This document shows positions 2,430 to 8,418 of a stretch of DNA of 36,199 bases, one piece after another. The notes below the pieces were generated by a model. The model ran no database searches, was not told the DNA's origin, and worked only from the letters and a program-made list of their open reading frames with translations. The translations under genes and the position numbers were made by a program. Every line of letters begins with the position of its first letter. The stretch's first letter is position 1. Source of the DNA: Candidatus Aenigmatarchaeota archaeon (lineage in GTDB: Archaea; Aenigmatarchaeota; Aenigmatarchaeia; QMZP01; QMZT01); contig JAFGCI010000007.1 of the NCBI GenBank assembly GCA_016932735.1, positions 1 to 36,199 on the forward strand, given 5' to 3'.

Positions 2430-3695
2430 ATGAAACTCGGGGTTTTGTTTTCAGGAGGAAAGGATTCCTGTTATGCTTTACATAAAGCCACGCAGAAAGA
2501 AGAAGTAGTATGTCTTATATCAATAATTTCTGAAAATGCTGAAAGCTATATGTTCCATACGCCAAACATAGGACTGACAAAGCTTCAGGCCGAAGCAATC
2601 GGACTTCCATTAATACAAAAGAAAACAAAGGGCGAAAAGGAAAAGGAACTTAAAGAATTAAAAAGCGCCATCAAAGAAGCCAAAGAGTTATATAGGATAG
2701 AAGGCATCGTGACAGGAGCTGTCGAATCTGTCTACCAGGCAACCAGAATCCAGAAGATATGCGCCGAACTTGGATTAAAATGCTTCAATCCTCTATGGCA
2801 GAGAGAACAGCTTGAACTAGTCAGAGAGATATCGTCTGTTTTTGATGTGATGATTTCCGGCGTGTTCGCCTACCCGCTGACAAAAAGCTGGCTGGGCGAG
2901 AAGATAAACGATGAACTTATCGGAAAATTACAGGTTCTTCAGGAGAGATATCAAGTAAGCCCTACAGGAGAAGGCGGCGAAATTGAGACGACCGTTCTCG
3001 ACGCCCCCTTCTTCAGAAATAGAATAGAAATAACAGATTCTGAGAAAAAATTCGACGGCTACTCGGGTACAATAGAAGTGAAGGATGCGAAGCTTGTCAG
3101 GAAAGTCAAGAAAGTGTACGGGGAGATTCCTGAAAAGAAACTGGACGGTAATACCCTTATAATAGATTCATGCGACAGGAAAGATTCCCTGTCAAAGGAC
3201 GAATTTGTCCTTCCCATTGCAAAAGCTGTCGGTTATGACTGCTTTGTCAGACACTTTTCCGAGGTCGGGGAGAAAGACCTCAAAAAATGCAAAAGAGTCA
3301 TCATATCAGGAAGCCCTTTCGGGGATTTCGAATCGACCAAACATTTAGAGAAATTCAAATGGCTGAAAACTTTCGAAAAGCCCGTTCTCGGGATCTGCGC
3401 GGGTCATCAGGTTATCGGCCTTGTATTCGGTTCAGAGATTAAAAATGGAAAGATTATAGGAATGAAAAATATCAAGGCTGCAAAAAAGAACGAACTTATC
3501 CCAAAAGACATAGAGGGATATTGCATGCATAGCCAGATAATCACAAAACCAGAAGGCTTTGACATAATAGCAAAAAGCGGGAATTTTATCGAAGCAATAA
3601 AGCACAAAAAGAGACCGATTTTTGGTGTCCAGTTCCATCCGGAGGTCAGGAATCATGCAATAATACAGCGGTTTTTGCGAATTTCAGTAATGTGA
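2430..3695 (+). CDS. Diphthine-ammonia ligase (Dph6) fused to class I glutamine amidotransferase
   Basis: 421 residues in two domains. Residues 1 to about 230 are an ATP-binding N-type PPase domain of the Dph6/MJ0570 family: SGGKDS at 8-13, the block GAVESVYQATRIQKIC, and GEGGEIETTVLDAPFF near 179. Dph6 performs the last step of diphthamide synthesis on EF-2, amidating diphthine with ammonia and ATP. Residues about 240-421 are a class I glutamine amidotransferase: nucleophile C323 in GICAGHQ, and H403 and E405 in GVQFHPE, so the triad is complete. The obvious reading is that the second domain supplies ammonia from glutamine to the first. Dph6 proteins are usually described as using free ammonium, so the fusion is unusual. 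Its job is inferred from domain order only. Confidence 0.85.
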   Translation: MKLGVLFSGGKDSCYALHKATQKEEVVCLISIISENAESYMFHTPNIGLTKLQAEAIGLPLIQKKTKGEKEKELKELKSAIKEAKELYRIEGIVTGAVESVYQATRIQKICAELGLKCFNPLWQREQLELVREISSVFDVMISGVFAYPLTKSWLGEKINDELIGKLQVLQERYQVSPTGEGGEIETTVLDAPFFRNRIEITDSEKKFDGYSGTIEVKDAKLVRKVKKVYGEIPEKKLDGNTLIIDSCDRKDSLSKDEFVLPIAKAVGYDCFVRHFSEVGEKDLKKCKRVIISGSPFGDFESTKHLEKFKWLKTFEKPVLGICAGHQVIGLVFGSEIKNGKIIGMKNIKAAKKNELIPKDIEGYCMHSQIITKPEGFDIIAKSGNFIEAIKHKKRPIFGVQFHPEVRNHAIIQRFLRISVM

Positions 3696-3724: not shown

Positions 3725-3914
3725 TCACATATATGAATTTAGGGAAAAATTAATTATTTCATATATATGATAACTATTTTTTCCGGATTTTTTATTGAAA
3801 ATAATAACTTATGCCCTCTGCATTCCTGTTTTAATAAAAAATGCAGGCAGACAGCATTTTTATAAATTTTCACTTATGTGATTTAAAAAATATACTTTTT
3901 TATCACATATATGA
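3725..3914. promoter_or_regulatory. Cluster of four 12-bp palindromic operator-like sites
   Basis: Four near-identical palindromes lie in the AT-rich gap before the regulator gene: TCACATATATGA (3725-3736), TCATATATATGA (3759-3770, perfect palindrome), TCACTTATGTGA (3870-3881) and TCACATATATGA (3903-3914). They form two pairs with start-to-start spacings of 34 and 33 bases, about three helical turns. The last site lies about 10 bases upstream of the TATA box of the downstream operon. This is the arrangement expected for cooperative binding of a dimeric regulator; the winged-helix protein encoded directly downstream is the obvious candidate. Confidence 0.65.
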
Positions 3915-3922
3915 TATAAAGT

Positions 3923-3930
3923 ATATAAAC
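3923..3930 (+). promoter_or_regulatory. TATA box of the wHTH/V4R operon
   Basis: ATATAAAC about 24-29 bases upstream of the ATG at 3952, the expected distance for a leaderless archaeal mRNA. The adjacent operator at 3903-3914 would cover the BRE/TFB side of this promoter. Confidence 0.55.
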
Positions 3931-3951
3931 CATGCATGCGAAATTATATGC

Positions 3952-4203
3952 ATGAAGAATAAACCCTTCAGGCAAGTGGTTTTAGAACACATCGAACTCA
4001 ACTGGCCCATAAACACCAAGGAAATAGCCAAGGGGCTTGGGATGAAACCTGACAATGGTGCAATAAAGAGGATATCATATCACATCAAGAATCTCGAAAA
4101 GGATGAAAAGGTCATGACAAGAAGGGTAGGAAAGGCTCTTGTTGCGTGGCCTCAGGAGATTGAAAGGCTACGAATGATTCATGAGTTGTTAAGAACCGGA
4201 TAA
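3952..4203 (+). CDS. Small winged-helix DNA-binding protein
   Basis: 83 residues that are almost entirely one winged helix-turn-helix. A first helix (RQVVLEHIELN) is followed by an HTH with TKEIAKGLGM and IKRISYHIKNLEKDEKV, a wing with VMTRRVGKALVAW, and a closing helix. An in-frame ATG at 3841 would extend it by 37 residues, but that extension would run through two operator sites and the TATA box and has unusual composition, so I take ATG 3952. It lies immediately before two V4R-like genes (14 bases to the first) and behind four palindromic sites. An autoregulated, ligand-responsive regulator is a reasonable inference. No closer family assignment is possible. Confidence 0.75.
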   Translation: MKNKPFRQVVLEHIELNWPINTKEIAKGLGMKPDNGAIKRISYHIKNLEKDEKVMTRRVGKALVAWPQEIERLRMIHELLRTG

Positions 4204-4217
4204 AGGGGTTGGGATGT

Positions 4218-4763
4218 ATGGCAGATATAGCAGATCCGTTGAAGAAGATGCTGATGTCAAAATCATTTTCAACAGATAGAAGCAGAATAAGAATGTTCGG
4301 AAAGATGGATTGGACTCTCGAGCCTTCAAGGGGTATGGCAGAGCTCATACAGATACCCGGAGAAAAAATGACTCAGGAAGAATTGTTTCGATTTGGTTAT
4401 GATAATGGGAAGATAATTGTTGATGAAATAAAAGGAATCCTGTTGGGAACTGAAAAGTCAATAACGCAGAAGGCAATAAACGATCTGCTTGAATTCATTG
4501 GTATGGGTCAGATTGATTTCATCAGAAGCGAAACAAGCGAGGACGGTCATCATCATATCGTAGCCCATATGATTAACAATCCCATAATTGAGCACGCAAA
4601 GGAAATGTATGGAGAGATATCCGTCATTTGCACATTCCTGAGAGGATTGTTCTCGGCACATGCTGAGATGGTCCTTGGTTTGAAGAATGTGCACTTGAAT
4701 GAGCTTAAATGCCAGTGCAAAAATCAGGCAAAGGATTTTTGCGAATGGGAGAGCAAGTGGTAA
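4218..4763 (+). CDS. V4R-like domain protein, copy 1
   Basis: 181 residues counted from ATG 4218, chosen because it aligns with the start of the next gene; an in-frame TTG at 4209 is an alternative. The C-terminal half resembles the V4R (4-vinyl-reductase/hydrocarbon-binding) fold: DGHHHIVAHMINNPI, then a short segment with a cysteine, a hydrophobic loop, LGLKNVHLNELKCQCK and a final FCEWESKW. V4R domains bind small molecules and are linked to regulators or tetrapyrrole enzymes. The two cysteines of CQC and the C of FCEW are candidates for metal or ligand contact. It is a close paralogue of the following gene and probably arose by tandem duplication. The ligand is unknown. Confidence 0.7.
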   Translation: MADIADPLKKMLMSKSFSTDRSRIRMFGKMDWTLEPSRGMAELIQIPGEKMTQEELFRFGYDNGKIIVDEIKGILLGTEKSITQKAINDLLEFIGMGQIDFIRSETSEDGHHHIVAHMINNPIIEHAKEMYGEISVICTFLRGLFSAHAEMVLGLKNVHLNELKCQCKNQAKDFCEWESKW

Positions 4764-4764
4764 T

Positions 4765-5310
4765 ATGCCGGTAATATCGTCGTTGTTAAAGAAAATGATT
4801 ATCGCAAGAGCATTCCGAACAGAAGATGGCAGAATAAAAATGTTCGGAGCAATGGACTGGACATTATATTCCTCAAAAGCGCTTGCGCATTTCTTCCAGG
4901 TAATAGGAGACAAATTTGGGGAAGATTTCCTTTATGATTTAAGTTACAAGAACGGGAGACTCAATGCAATGGAAATGACAAAAGCGATGAAAATCAAGCC
5001 GAAAGGCGGATGGACCACCCAGACGGCCATTGTGAGCCTTCTTGATTTCCTTGGCTACGGCAAACTGAAATTCGTCAAGATAGACGTAGGTGAAGAGGGA
5101 CATCATCATCTTATAGTACATACAACAGAAAATCCTATATCAGAACATTCAATAGAAATGTATGGGAAAAAATCACACGCATGCACATATTGGGCAGGGC
5201 TGCTAGCAGGCCACGGGGAACTTGAACTCGGTGTAAAGAACATAAAGCTGAAGGAAAACACCTGCATAAAAGACGGTGCAGGTTATTGCGAGTTTGAGAG
5301 TAAATGGTGA
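4765..5310 (+). CDS. V4R-like domain protein, copy 2
   Basis: 181 residues from ATG 4765, one base after the previous stop; a longer frame from 4699 would overlap the upstream gene and is rejected. It matches copy 1 over its whole length: (R/K)IKMFGAMDWTL near the N-terminus, DVGEEGHHHLIVHTTENPIS, a cysteine in SHACTYWAGLLAGHGELELGV and the ending GYCEFESKW. The ATYW/LAGHGE stretch is closer to typical V4R domains than that of copy 1, and GYC.F is the classic family ending. Equal length and the adjacent position suggest that the pair may form a heterodimer sensing a small molecule. Confidence 0.72.
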   Translation: MPVISSLLKKMIIARAFRTEDGRIKMFGAMDWTLYSSKALAHFFQVIGDKFGEDFLYDLSYKNGRLNAMEMTKAMKIKPKGGWTTQTAIVSLLDFLGYGKLKFVKIDVGEEGHHHLIVHTTENPISEHSIEMYGKKSHACTYWAGLLAGHGELELGVKNIKLKENTCIKDGAGYCEFESKW

Positions 5311-5353
5311 ATGATTACATAAAGATTGGAAAAAATTACTAAGGAGTGATAAT

Positions 5354-6586
5354 ATGCCAGCAAAAGTATTATTTGAATATAACGGTGGAAAGAAAGTTAT
5401 TGTATGTTCAGAGGCAGGCCAATATCAGGATGCCGCAATGTGCCAAGAAATATATAAGAGCCGTTTCAGTGTTCAGACCGGAAGCTCTGAGAAGAAGGTA
5501 GGGCCTGCACCAATGTATTGTACAGCCGTGACCCCGGACTTCGAAAAGAAAGTCGAAAGGGGTCCTCATGATGAAAGAGCAATACATGTGGCTTCGGTAA
5601 ATAAACATGGTAAAATTCTATACGCACTTTCGCTTGCAGTTGATAACGGAGAAACGCATCACGGAGCAAGAATTGGTGTTCCCTTAGAGAACAGATACAA
5701 ATCACCTCTTATGCCTGATGGCAGCGGTCAAAGTTATGAAGAAAGTGCTTCACTTGATGCTTTCAGAGAGAAATATGCCAGATTGAATGAAGGTTCAAAT
5801 GCCCCTGTCGCAGATGGTAGGGTTGTAGAACTTTTCAGGCATCATCAGAACACTGCAATGAAAACCACGCTTGCTGAATTTGCGCATCTTCCAAAAGAAC
5901 AACGAAGGGAAGCTGTTAAAAGGTCAGTAATGATTGATTTTGGCGACAGGCTTATGACTTACGGTGCTGCGTTCAAAGTCTTATGCACAGACCCTGTCGC
6001 AAGAGGACAGCAGCCAGCCGATTTATGGGTATGGGATGCTATACCAAACTACGCAAAGATGTATGCAGTAGTCGGCGGAGTCTTCAGGGATTTCACATTG
6101 AAACAAAACGGCAACGGCGGAGGAATATATCTTCCAACAAGAATGACGTTAATAAAAGAAGACAAAGCAATGGACCCAGATGGAGCAAAACCATGGAAGC
6201 TTAGAAAAGACATCGCTGCAACAATAAACGGAGGCTCACCTATACAGGTGTCAAGAAATCTTCAGATATTCCATCCTGATAAAGATTATGCACAAACGGG
6301 AAGGGGTGTAATAGAAAAGGATCCCATGCTGGATGGCTTAGTGCCAACTGGTGTGATTGCTGGAGAATTAAACAGGCATCCTATCAGTCCATTCAGGAGG
6401 CTGTGGGGCTATTACACCACAGTAGCTGAAAGACAGGAGATGAGAGGGGCTATAGCTGTCGTCACAAACGGTCACGGATTCCCAAGCCACAGATGCAATC
6501 CTGTTGTTCATTACATGAACAAGAAAGCAAAAGATATGGTAGGAGTCACTCCTCTAAGAGAAATTAAAACGAATGGAAAAATCTGA
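5354..6586 (+). CDS. Unknown 410-residue protein, possible acyltransferase-like enzyme
   Basis: 410 residues, no membrane segment or signal peptide. A strong Shine-Dalgarno site (AAGGAGTGAT, 5341-5350) fixes the start. I do not recognise the family with confidence. The N-terminal half has a layout recalling the GNAT-type autoinducer-synthase/N-acyl-amino-acid-synthase group: IYKSRF near residue 35, a HVASVNKHGKILYALSLAV strand pair, a GARIGVPL segment and GRVVELFRHHQN near 160. The C-terminal half has YYTTVAERQEMRGAIAVVTN and GHGFPSHRCNPVVHY, with conserved-looking histidines and a cysteine. It sits 43 bases downstream of two V4R-like genes and a wHTH gene, probably in the same transcript. 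The acyltransferase idea is a weak structural analogy, not an assignment. Confidence 0.55.
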   Translation: MPAKVLFEYNGGKKVIVCSEAGQYQDAAMCQEIYKSRFSVQTGSSEKKVGPAPMYCTAVTPDFEKKVERGPHDERAIHVASVNKHGKILYALSLAVDNGETHHGARIGVPLENRYKSPLMPDGSGQSYEESASLDAFREKYARLNEGSNAPVADGRVVELFRHHQNTAMKTTLAEFAHLPKEQRREAVKRSVMIDFGDRLMTYGAAFKVLCTDPVARGQQPADLWVWDAIPNYAKMYAVVGGVFRDFTLKQNGNGGGIYLPTRMTLIKEDKAMDPDGAKPWKLRKDIAATINGGSPIQVSRNLQIFHPDKDYAQTGRGVIEKDPMLDGLVPTGVIAGELNRHPISPFRRLWGYYTTVAERQEMRGAIAVVTNGHGFPSHRCNPVVHYMNKKAKDMVGVTPLREIKTNGKI

Positions 6587-6590
6587 TTTT

Positions 6591-7265
6591 TTATTCATCA
6601 TTTCTTACTTCCATTCCTTTTTCTGTTATCATGATAGGATAGACGTTAGTTCCCTGATTAGTTCTCCTCATCTTTCTTATCATCATAGAACGGGAAACCC
6701 CTTCACCGATACCGAAATAGTACATTGATATAACTCCGTCAACAACAAATTCCTCGACGCCAAACCTTGAAAGACCCTTCTCCTCGCTGTCCAAAACTTC
6801 TGAAATGAGGACAGATGTCGCGCCGGTTCTCTTGACAGAATTTATCAGCGAGATAAGTTTCTTTCTGACCTGCATCTCGTTCGGAAGCATCATTCCAACT
6901 ATGGAAACAGAATCAACGACAACCCTTTGTGCATCTATTTTATCAATATCGTCTACAATGTTTATTCCCATCTCATTGACCTGTAAAGGGTCGTAATAGA
7001 CTATCCTGAACAGGTTTTTCTTTTCGTATTCTGAGAAGTCCCAGCCGAACCTGCGGGCATCCTCTCTGATATCCTCGACGTCCTCTTCAAGGGTTATATA
7101 GACACCGGGCTCTCCTTTCTTCAGACCGTCCCACAAGAACTGGAGACCGAAAATCGTCTTACCTGTTCCTGCTCCGCCGGTGACAAGGATTGAAGCGCCT
7201 TTGATAAAACCGCCTTCCATAAGCGGATCAAGTCCCTTGATTCCTGTTGTTACTCTGCGTACCAT
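6591..7265 (-). CDS. KaiC/RecA-like single-domain ATPase
   Basis: 224 residues forming one RecA-fold domain of the KaiC type. It begins with RRVTTGIKGLDPLMEGGF, has Walker A TGGAGTGKT near residues 29-37, the YITLEED strand, Walker B RVVVDSVS, and the late block FGVEEFVVDGVI. Archaeal single-domain KaiC homologues are common and poorly characterised, with roles suggested in signalling, motility or gas vesicle control. The gene converges on the unknown 410-residue gene with only four bases between stops. A TATA-like AATATTATA lies just before the start on the minus strand. Confidence 0.85.
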   Translation of the reverse strand: MVRRVTTGIKGLDPLMEGGFIKGASILVTGGAGTGKTIFGLQFLWDGLKKGEPGVYITLEEDVEDIREDARRFGWDFSEYEKKNLFRIVYYDPLQVNEMGINIVDDIDKIDAQRVVVDSVSIVGMMLPNEMQVRKKLISLINSVKRTGATSVLISEVLDSEEKGLSRFGVEEFVVDGVISMYYFGIGEGVSRSMMIRKMRRTNQGTNVYPIMITEKGMEVRNDE

Positions 7266-7344
7266 AATATAATATTATTTAAATCAAGTCCCTTATATTG
7301 TTTATATTAATATATGTTTTCGGATATCACTTAGGTGTATTTTT

Positions 7345-8418
7345 ATGACTGACAATGATGCTACAGATTTTGTCAGGGAAAAGTCCGGGATTATTGAAGA
7401 CGCGATGAAAAAGTTCATCCCGAAAAAAATGGACAAAAAATACATAGACTGGCTTATGGGGCCTCACAGATACAAATACAATATAGAATCCCTGAACAAG
7501 ACGCTGTCAGAACCGATATGGGATTACCTTGACAGGGGTGGTAAGAGGCTTCGTCCTGCGTTGTTCCTTCTTCTTACAGAGGTTCTCGGAGGCGACGTTG
7601 AAATGGTTAAGGATTTTGCCGCTGTTGTCGAACTTCTCCATAACGGAAGCATAATGGTCGATGACATTGAAGACAATTCCGACCTTAGAAGAGGAAAGCC
7701 CTGCACACATAAGATATTCGGAATTGACATAGCGATAAACGCGGGCAATTACATGTATTTTGCCGCTTACGGAGCGCTAATGAAAAACAGCGATAAATTT
7801 CCTCCAGAGATTATGCTAAGGGCATATAATGCTATAGCGCGGGAGATGATAATAATCCATACGGGCCAGGGAATGGACATTGCATGGCATAATAATCTCG
7901 CGGATGCGGATAATATTTCTGTTGATGAATACCTCCAAATGTGCGCCAACAAGACCGGAGTCCTTTTAAGGGTTGCAGCGAGGCTTGCCGCTATCTTTTC
8001 CGGTAAGGATGCAAAAATTGAAGAGGCGCTTGCAGAGTTCACGGAGACTATCGGAATTGCCTTCCAGATACAGGATGACATAATGAATCTCCAGCCCACG
8101 GAGAAGTGGGGAAAGGAAATAGGCGACGACATAAACGAGGGAAAAAGAACGCTCATAGTCTTGCACGCATTAAAAAATGCGAATCAAAAAGACAGGAAAA
8201 GGCTTCTTGAGATACTGAATATGCACACAAAAGAGCAAAAGACAATCATTGAAGCTATAGAAATCATGAAAAAATACGATTCGCTTAATTATGCAAAGGA
8301 GTTTGCAAGGAAGATCATAAAGGATTCTTGGTCAGGAATAGACCCGCTTCTTCCGGAATCAGAATCAAAAGACAAACTGAAGAAACTGGCTGAATATCTT
8401 GTTGAAAGGGATATCTAG
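7345..8418 (+). CDS. Polyprenyl (geranylgeranyl) diphosphate synthase
   Basis: 357 residues, a trans-isoprenyl diphosphate synthase that builds the C20 (or similar) chain for archaeal ether lipids. Visible motifs are GGKRLRP near 65-71, the first aspartate-rich motif DDIED at 106-110 with downstream LRRG, and the second motif QDDIMN near 243-248. The second motif ends in N instead of D, as in eukaryote-type GGPP synthases, and is followed by K.GDDINEGKRT. The N-terminal extension of about 50 residues is longer than average. An AGGTG Shine-Dalgarno site precedes the ATG. Chain length cannot be deduced with confidence. The gene overlaps the end of the next, convergent gene by four bases. Confidence 0.88.
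   Translation: MTDNDATDFVREKSGIIEDAMKKFIPKKMDKKYIDWLMGPHRYKYNIESLNKTLSEPIWDYLDRGGKRLRPALFLLLTEVLGGDVEMVKDFAAVVELLHNGSIMVDDIEDNSDLRRGKPCTHKIFGIDIAINAGNYMYFAAYGALMKNSDKFPPEIMLRAYNAIAREMIIIHTGQGMDIAWHNNLADADNISVDEYLQMCANKTGVLLRVAARLAAIFSGKDAKIEEALAEFTETIGIAFQIQDDIMNLQPTEKWGKEIGDDINEGKRTLIVLHALKNANQKDRKRLLEILNMHTKEQKTIIEAIEIMKKYDSLNYAKEFARKIIKDSWSGIDPLLPESESKDKLKKLAEYLVERDI

Follow-up and report, generated by a model that had tools for sequence, protein, structure and literature searches.

The window analysed here is a 36,199-nucleotide stretch of Candidatus Aenigmatarchaeota archaeon DNA (contig JAFGCI010000007.1, positions 1 to 36,199), from a genome of 1.18 Mb in 11 contigs; all positions below are window coordinates. 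At 3952-6586, it carries a row of four genes for a winged helix-turn-helix (wHTH) regulator, two V4R-type sensors (V4R1 and V4R2) and an orphan protein of 410 residues. With moderate confidence, we interpret this locus as an autoregulated, ligand-responsive cassette, organised like a split version of the regulator MsvR, that would control exchangeable lipid-type enzymes. The four genes, all on the + strand and separated by gaps of 14, 1 and 43 nt, were found as the original prediction had described them. The upstream neighbour gene stops at 3695, leaving 256 bp before the wHTH gene, and this region holds four near-palindromes (Table 1). As a sister genome for comparisons, we used G001 ('Candidatus Micrarchaeota archaeon M_MetaBat.29'), which belongs to the same genus; its locus spans two contigs, with V4R1 joined to it by inference.

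Operators and clades of the wHTH regulator

The exact TCAYWTATRTGA motif occurs in only five places in the 1.18 Mb genome, four of them in this intergenic region and the remaining one within an open reading frame (ORF). With one mismatch allowed, the window contains 10 strand-matches, compared to a shuffle mean of 1.77 (maximum 9; 0/100 shuffles reached 10). All four palindromic sites proposed earlier are thus present, and the exact motif is nearly confined to this promoter. The promoter of G001 retains two of the sites, at -81 and -49 (-82 and -49 in the window), and the distance of the TATA-like box to the start codon fits a leaderless wHTH promoter. A regulon elsewhere in the genome was considered and rejected, as the five other motif sites examined all fall within ORFs. 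A further inverted repeat (CTGCATT...AATGCAG, 3817-3848), a candidate upstream terminator or additional operator, separates the distal pair of operators from the proximal one.

A search with the wHTH alone led to 28 small archaeal genomes. The regulator itself matches Pfam weakly (HTH_12, E=1.9e-4), and HTH_HVO_0163_N was matched in 7/17 family members. In other genera as well, a palindrome stands about 50 bp 5' of the wHTH start codon and is followed by a TATA-like box. In the family alignment, the wHTH clades vary in the recognition-helix region (IKKISYH, VSKIRYH, SAKYLYH, HLCYH, STKYSYY), and a different palindrome accompanies each clade (TTCACATATGTGAA, TTGCAACTAGTTGCAA, TTGGAATATTCCAA, TCCCACATGTGGGA and TTCTGGCATGCCAGAA). 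Sites about 50 bp upstream belong to the CACATATGTG class in G000, G001, G003, G008, G019 and G034, to the GCAACTAGTTGC class in G015 and G027 (looser in G131), to the GGAATATTCC class in G006, G011 and G023 (looser in G129 and G147) and to the GGCATGCC class in G174 and G215. The TCCCACATGTGGGA palindrome was found in G071 and G124 only, farther upstream, while TTCTGGCATGCCAGAA is clear in G174 and G215 and looser in G308 and G377. G002 and G007 carry a looser variant, TCACTATAGTTA, and G103 showed no clear site for the tested consensuses.

Matches to the own-class operator reached a shuffle p of ≤0.02 in 13 genomes (three consensuses tested). In a generic best-palindrome test, many individual promoters were not significant alone, so that the weight of the operator evidence rests on the class pattern. 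On the wHTH tree (97 columns, five strongly supported branches), operator class changes four times, which is the minimum possible (shuffled mean 12.6). Judging from sequence, this agreement is the pattern that a repressor co-evolving with its own operator would give. Given that the palindromes differ by clade and mostly stand some 50 bp before the start codon, the wHTH is very likely to act on the promoter of its own gene.

V4R and FIST sensors behind the regulator

V4R1 and V4R2 are 41% identical. One of the two shows a sub-threshold Pfam V4R match (E=0.0014), and Pfam V4R was matched in 8/15 members of the family. Compared with the PDB, the family profile matches MJ1460 (1.3e-7), PoxR (5.8e-6) and MopR (4e-5) over most of the domain, as well as the CapR/DmpR structures. 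All 15 aligned members keep the Glu and the last two Cys of the putative zinc site, and 12 of them also have the first Cys; in DmpR, the zinc ligands are Cys, Glu, Cys and Cys (PMC7264223). The earlier V4R-like assignment is therefore borne out by both the solved structures and the zinc-site residues. A role in binding hydrophobic ligands is proposed for V4R domains (PMC2253512). As a separate observation, V4R2 (4765-5310) carries a GHHH motif followed by H119 within residues 112-119, which is kept in most cassette V4Rs and not in distant ones, and this may possibly mark a second metal or cofactor site.

The same cysteines could serve an MsvR-type redox or metal switch, in which the V4R would let go of the wHTH upon oxidation or zinc loss, with the linked genes acting in the stress response and not in making the sensed molecule. 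C140, C167 and C175 of V4R2 are spaced nearly as the redox-relevant cysteines 206, 232 and 240 of MaMsvR (PMC3729527), and the MsvR promoter is likewise autoregulated and leaderless. However, the equivalent cysteines are zinc ligands in the aromatic-responsive phenol sensor DmpR (PMC7264223), the first of them is absent from some family members and the cassette cargo is of lipid type rather than oxidative-stress type. We therefore regard such a switch as unlikely.

Among 27 readable loci chosen by wHTH similarity alone (G103, which ends at a contig edge, was left out), 23 have a V4R or FIST gene as the first or second gene downstream of the wHTH. V4R comes first in G000, G001, G002, G006, G007, G008, G019, G023, G027, G147, G174, G215, G235, G308 and G377 and second in G034, G264, G071 and G124; FIST comes first in G003, G129 and G131 and second in G015. 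Nine of these genomes lie outside the phylum of the window (kinship 'same domain'; 0.8-1.3 Mb where listed) and are, we infer, DPANN-type; their position outside the phylum indicates that the wHTH-sensor pairing is old. The original prediction of a self-contained operator/wHTH/V4R unit is thus supported by clade-specific operators and by linkage in many genomes, and gene order in relatives, set beforehand as its refutation test, is kept.

Exchangeable enzymes and the 410-residue orphan

The position behind the sensors is occupied by different genes in different species (enzymes assigned by Pfam/NCBIfam). In the window and G001, it holds the 410-aa orphan and its homologue, respectively; a KAS III follows the sensor in G002 (PF08541, 3.8e-14), a Methyltransf_20-like methyltransferase in G007, G008, G019 and G027, and a UbiA prenyltransferase lies close by in G006, G023, G034, G071, G235 and G264. 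FIST is followed by LuxE and LuxC in G003 and G015, with a looser version in G129. Cargo changes seven times on the wHTH tree. Cargo differs even within one genus, between G019 and G034. G027 and G015, which share one operator class and form a supported sister branch (98/92), have a methyltransferase versus FIST-LuxE-LuxC, each beside a KaiC gene. Identity to G001 amounts to 38% for the 410-aa protein, compared to 66% for the wHTH, 81% for V4R2 and 83% for KaiC, which suggests a fast-evolving cargo around a stable core.

The wHTH-FIST-LuxE-LuxC loci appear to be a sensor-linked long-chain aldehyde-type pathway in archaea. This gene order was seen in Micrarchaeota (L062:1647-5961, L065:1877-6240 and L072:4955-9093); in L072, the protein at the LuxE position is unmatched and Aldedh takes the place of LuxC. 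In L067 (638-3537), a methyltransferase-like gene, a gene for a 391-aa V4R-containing protein and UbiA are consecutive; the row lies near two wHTH paralogues with a HEPN/nucleotidyltransferase-like pair between them.

The 410-aa protein has a single homologue, a 372-aa protein at the corresponding place in G001. Neither searches of Pfam, NCBIfam, PHROGs and the PDB (sequence and two-row profile) nor searches across phages, plasmids, viral contigs, genome contigs and 392 archaeal genomes gave a family or any other relative. The original prediction had noted a loose resemblance to N-acyl/autoinducer-synthase-type acyltransferases, and by eye, the motif PHDE..H...IGVPLENRY recalls DEWD..H...GLPMERVF of FeeM. 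There was no match to PF21926, PF00765 or TIGR03694 at E≤10, and the candidate FeeM/autoinducer-synthase homology was rejected in hhalign, where it scored 13.7 with shuffles reaching up to 25.4 and 21/40 shuffles equal or better (two-row query, low power). With the same query, every other cargo family scored no better than shuffles. Of the hhalign controls, the methyltransferase positive worked (E=1e-22) and the single-sequence LuxE failed; this failure and the two-sequence query make the power of these comparisons low. AlphaFold models reached a pLDDT (predicted local distance difference test) of about 32 in two tries, too low for a usable fold. What stands of the predicted enzyme-like last gene is that lipid-type biosynthetic enzymes occupy its slot in other species; the acyltransferase resemblance itself is not supported, within the limits of this low-power query.

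These swaps also bear on a quorum-sensing-like explanation, in which the enzyme would make a diffusible lipid-derived signal, the V4R would sense it and the wHTH would close an autoinduction loop, so that a change of enzyme changes the signal. Sensor, operator and enzyme do share one locus, one of the slot enzymes, KAS III in G002, is of a kind that occurs in bacterial chemical signalling, and the rapid divergence of the 410-aa protein relative to its neighbours would suit such a role. Furthermore, at G018, a locus found by V4R similarity, the V4R gene adjoins genes for a B12-radical-SAM protein and for FeeM, a relative of autoinducer synthases (PF21926, 6.9e-39; PDB FeeM, 1.2e-10). But this locus has no wHTH, the 410-aa protein lacks synthase homology and no exporter is linked to the cassette, while UbiA, geranylgeranyl-reductase-like and methyltransferase cargo would equally suit membrane-lipid or pigment metabolism. 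A census of quorum-sensing genes in candidate phyla radiation (CPR)/DPANN genomes does not mention V4R (PMC7567580). We consider this explanation improbable. The same low probability applies to its broader form, a widespread family of archaeal chemical-signalling cassettes in small DPANN-type genomes with a wHTH-operator pair, a V4R or FIST receptor and interchangeable lipid-signal synthases (FIST with LuxE/LuxC; V4R with KAS III, UbiA, methyltransferases or the 410-aa orphan), where an enzyme swap would amount to a change of dialect. At L030:5570-8428, a V4R gene (product 53% identical to V4R2) is followed by B12-radical-SAM and FeeM genes; the row has no wHTH and adjoins an integrase-like remnant.

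Beyond the cassette, the KaiC-like ATPase and the polyprenyl synthase (6591-8418) adjoin it in many genomes, including those of other phyla, and KaiC occasionally lies inside it (L068, L069).

Table 1. Features of the cassette and its surroundings in the window
Feature	Position	Strand	Remarks
Operator 1 (distal)	3725-3736	.	TCACATATATGA, -227
Operator 2 (distal)	3759-3770	.	TCATATATATGA, -193; 34 bp from operator 1
Operator 3 (proximal)	3870-3881	.	TCACTTATGTGA, -82; G001 counterpart at -81
Operator 4 (proximal)	3903-3914	.	TCACATATATGA, -49; position kept across most of the wHTH family
TATA-like box	3919-3930	+	AGTATATAAACC; ~25-30 nt before start codon; similar layout in relatives
wHTH regulator, 83 aa	3952-4203	+	Recognition-helix region IKRISYH; weak Pfam HTH matches, family alignments
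V4R1, V4R-type sensor, 181 aa	4218-4763	+	Putative Zn ligands C138, E162, C165/167, C175; family profile vs PDB
V4R2, V4R-type sensor, 181 aa	4765-5310	+	Putative Zn ligands C140, E164, C167, C175; family profile vs PDB
410-aa orphan protein in enzyme slot	5354-6586	+	Sole homologue at same place in G001
KaiC-like ATPase, convergent	6591-7265	-	PF06745, E=4e-64; recurrent cassette neighbour, outside transcript
Polyprenyl synthase (geranylgeranyl diphosphate, GGPP, type)	7345-8418	+	PF00348, E=3.6e-73; recurrent cassette neighbour

Proposed mechanism and relation to known systems

In the favoured reading, a wHTH dimer would bind the palindromes next to the TATA box in the leaderless promoter of its own gene and would control the entire transcript, from wHTH through V4R1 and V4R2 to the 410-aa gene, a step with strong comparative support. 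Repression is the probable mode, as the -49 site directly adjoins the TATA box. The zinc-type V4R proteins, which as paralogues may form a heterodimer, would bind a small molecule of hydrophobic or aromatic nature, as suggested by the V4R family and MsvR. By analogy to that family and to the fused MsvR, ligand-bound V4R may alter wHTH activity through protein contact, either relieving or strengthening repression. To judge from the swapped genes, the enzyme encoded last would make, modify or remove a lipid- or isoprenoid-type compound monitored by the sensors, which would give feedback control. The regulator-operator-sensor core would thereby be conserved, with the enzyme, and presumably its chemistry, exchangeable.

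Several points weigh against this reading. The wHTH-V4R contact is argued from analogy; an HTH-V4R fusion was sought as direct proof and rejected, since the weak 395-aa matches are other HTH proteins with no V4R-like part by eye. G011, G189, G209 and G359 lack a sensor gene in the two positions after the wHTH; V4R genes lie close by, differently arranged. Many of the compared genomes are incomplete metagenome-assembled genomes, and the wHTH tree, built on 97 columns, has few strongly supported branches. The label 'enzyme' for the 410-aa protein rests on its position and on what replaces its gene elsewhere, and the wHTH-V4R loci of G174, G215, G308 and G377 have no obvious enzyme directly behind them, so that an enzyme is not obligatory. 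Such enzyme-free pairs, and the confinement of the 410-aa gene to one genus among the genomes searched, would also suit a unit of wHTH and V4R only, with an unrelated orphan downstream by chance. Yet G001 holds the 38%-identical protein at the corresponding place before the convergent KaiC gene, the gene follows V4R2 by only 43 nt and other enzyme genes occupy this position in most Micrarchaeota loci; we thus find a chance neighbour very doubtful.

Little is known about how DPANN archaea regulate genes in response to ligands. In openly searchable literature, no paper was found that connects V4R to regulation in Micrarchaeota or DPANN; V4R and DPANN co-occur only in a survey of two-component systems. 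The cassette offers a compact regulator, a predicted operator per clade and a sensor whose fold is known and whose metal site is intact, and the kinds of enzyme linked to it restrict the candidate ligands to compounds resembling lipids or isoprenoids. This opens the identity of the ligand and an archaeal sense-and-respond logic to direct testing, and independent switches for archaea could be built from the matched wHTH/operator classes.

The likeness to LuxI/FeeM and bacterial quorum-sensing units is purely one of function, in that a sensor, a regulator and an enzyme for a small molecule share a locus: homology of the 410-aa protein to these synthases was not detected, and regulator and sensor come from other families. 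The XylR_N/V4R domains of the phenol sensors DmpR, MopR and PoxR share profile homology and the C...E..C...C zinc site with the window V4Rs, which, unlike them, stand alone beside an archaeal wHTH, without AAA+ or sigma-54 parts and with their own GHHH motif. The archaeal V4R protein of the MJ1460 type (COG1719, 'predicted hydrocarbon-binding'; PMC2253512), the best PDB match, is also stand-alone, but in the literature covered no linked wHTH/operator unit is reported for it, in contrast to the window locus. The system most alike is MsvR, which combines HTH and V4R in one protein and represses its own leaderless promoter from boxes just upstream of the BRE (B recognition element)/TATA box, with three conserved V4R cysteines spaced nearly as in the window proteins (PMC3729527). 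The window sites at -82 and -49, the TATA-like box at about -30 and the putative leaderless start appear to match this promoter design. Unlike MsvR, HTH and V4R are separate ORFs in the window (3952-4203, 4218-4763), the V4R is duplicated, an exchangeable enzyme gene follows and the operators are TCAYWTATRTGA instead of the inverted repeat TTCGTAN4TACGAA. The wHTH, V4R and lipid enzymes are themselves of known kinds; what appears to be new is that the V4R regulator is split, matched to its operators and followed by enzyme cargo that can be exchanged.

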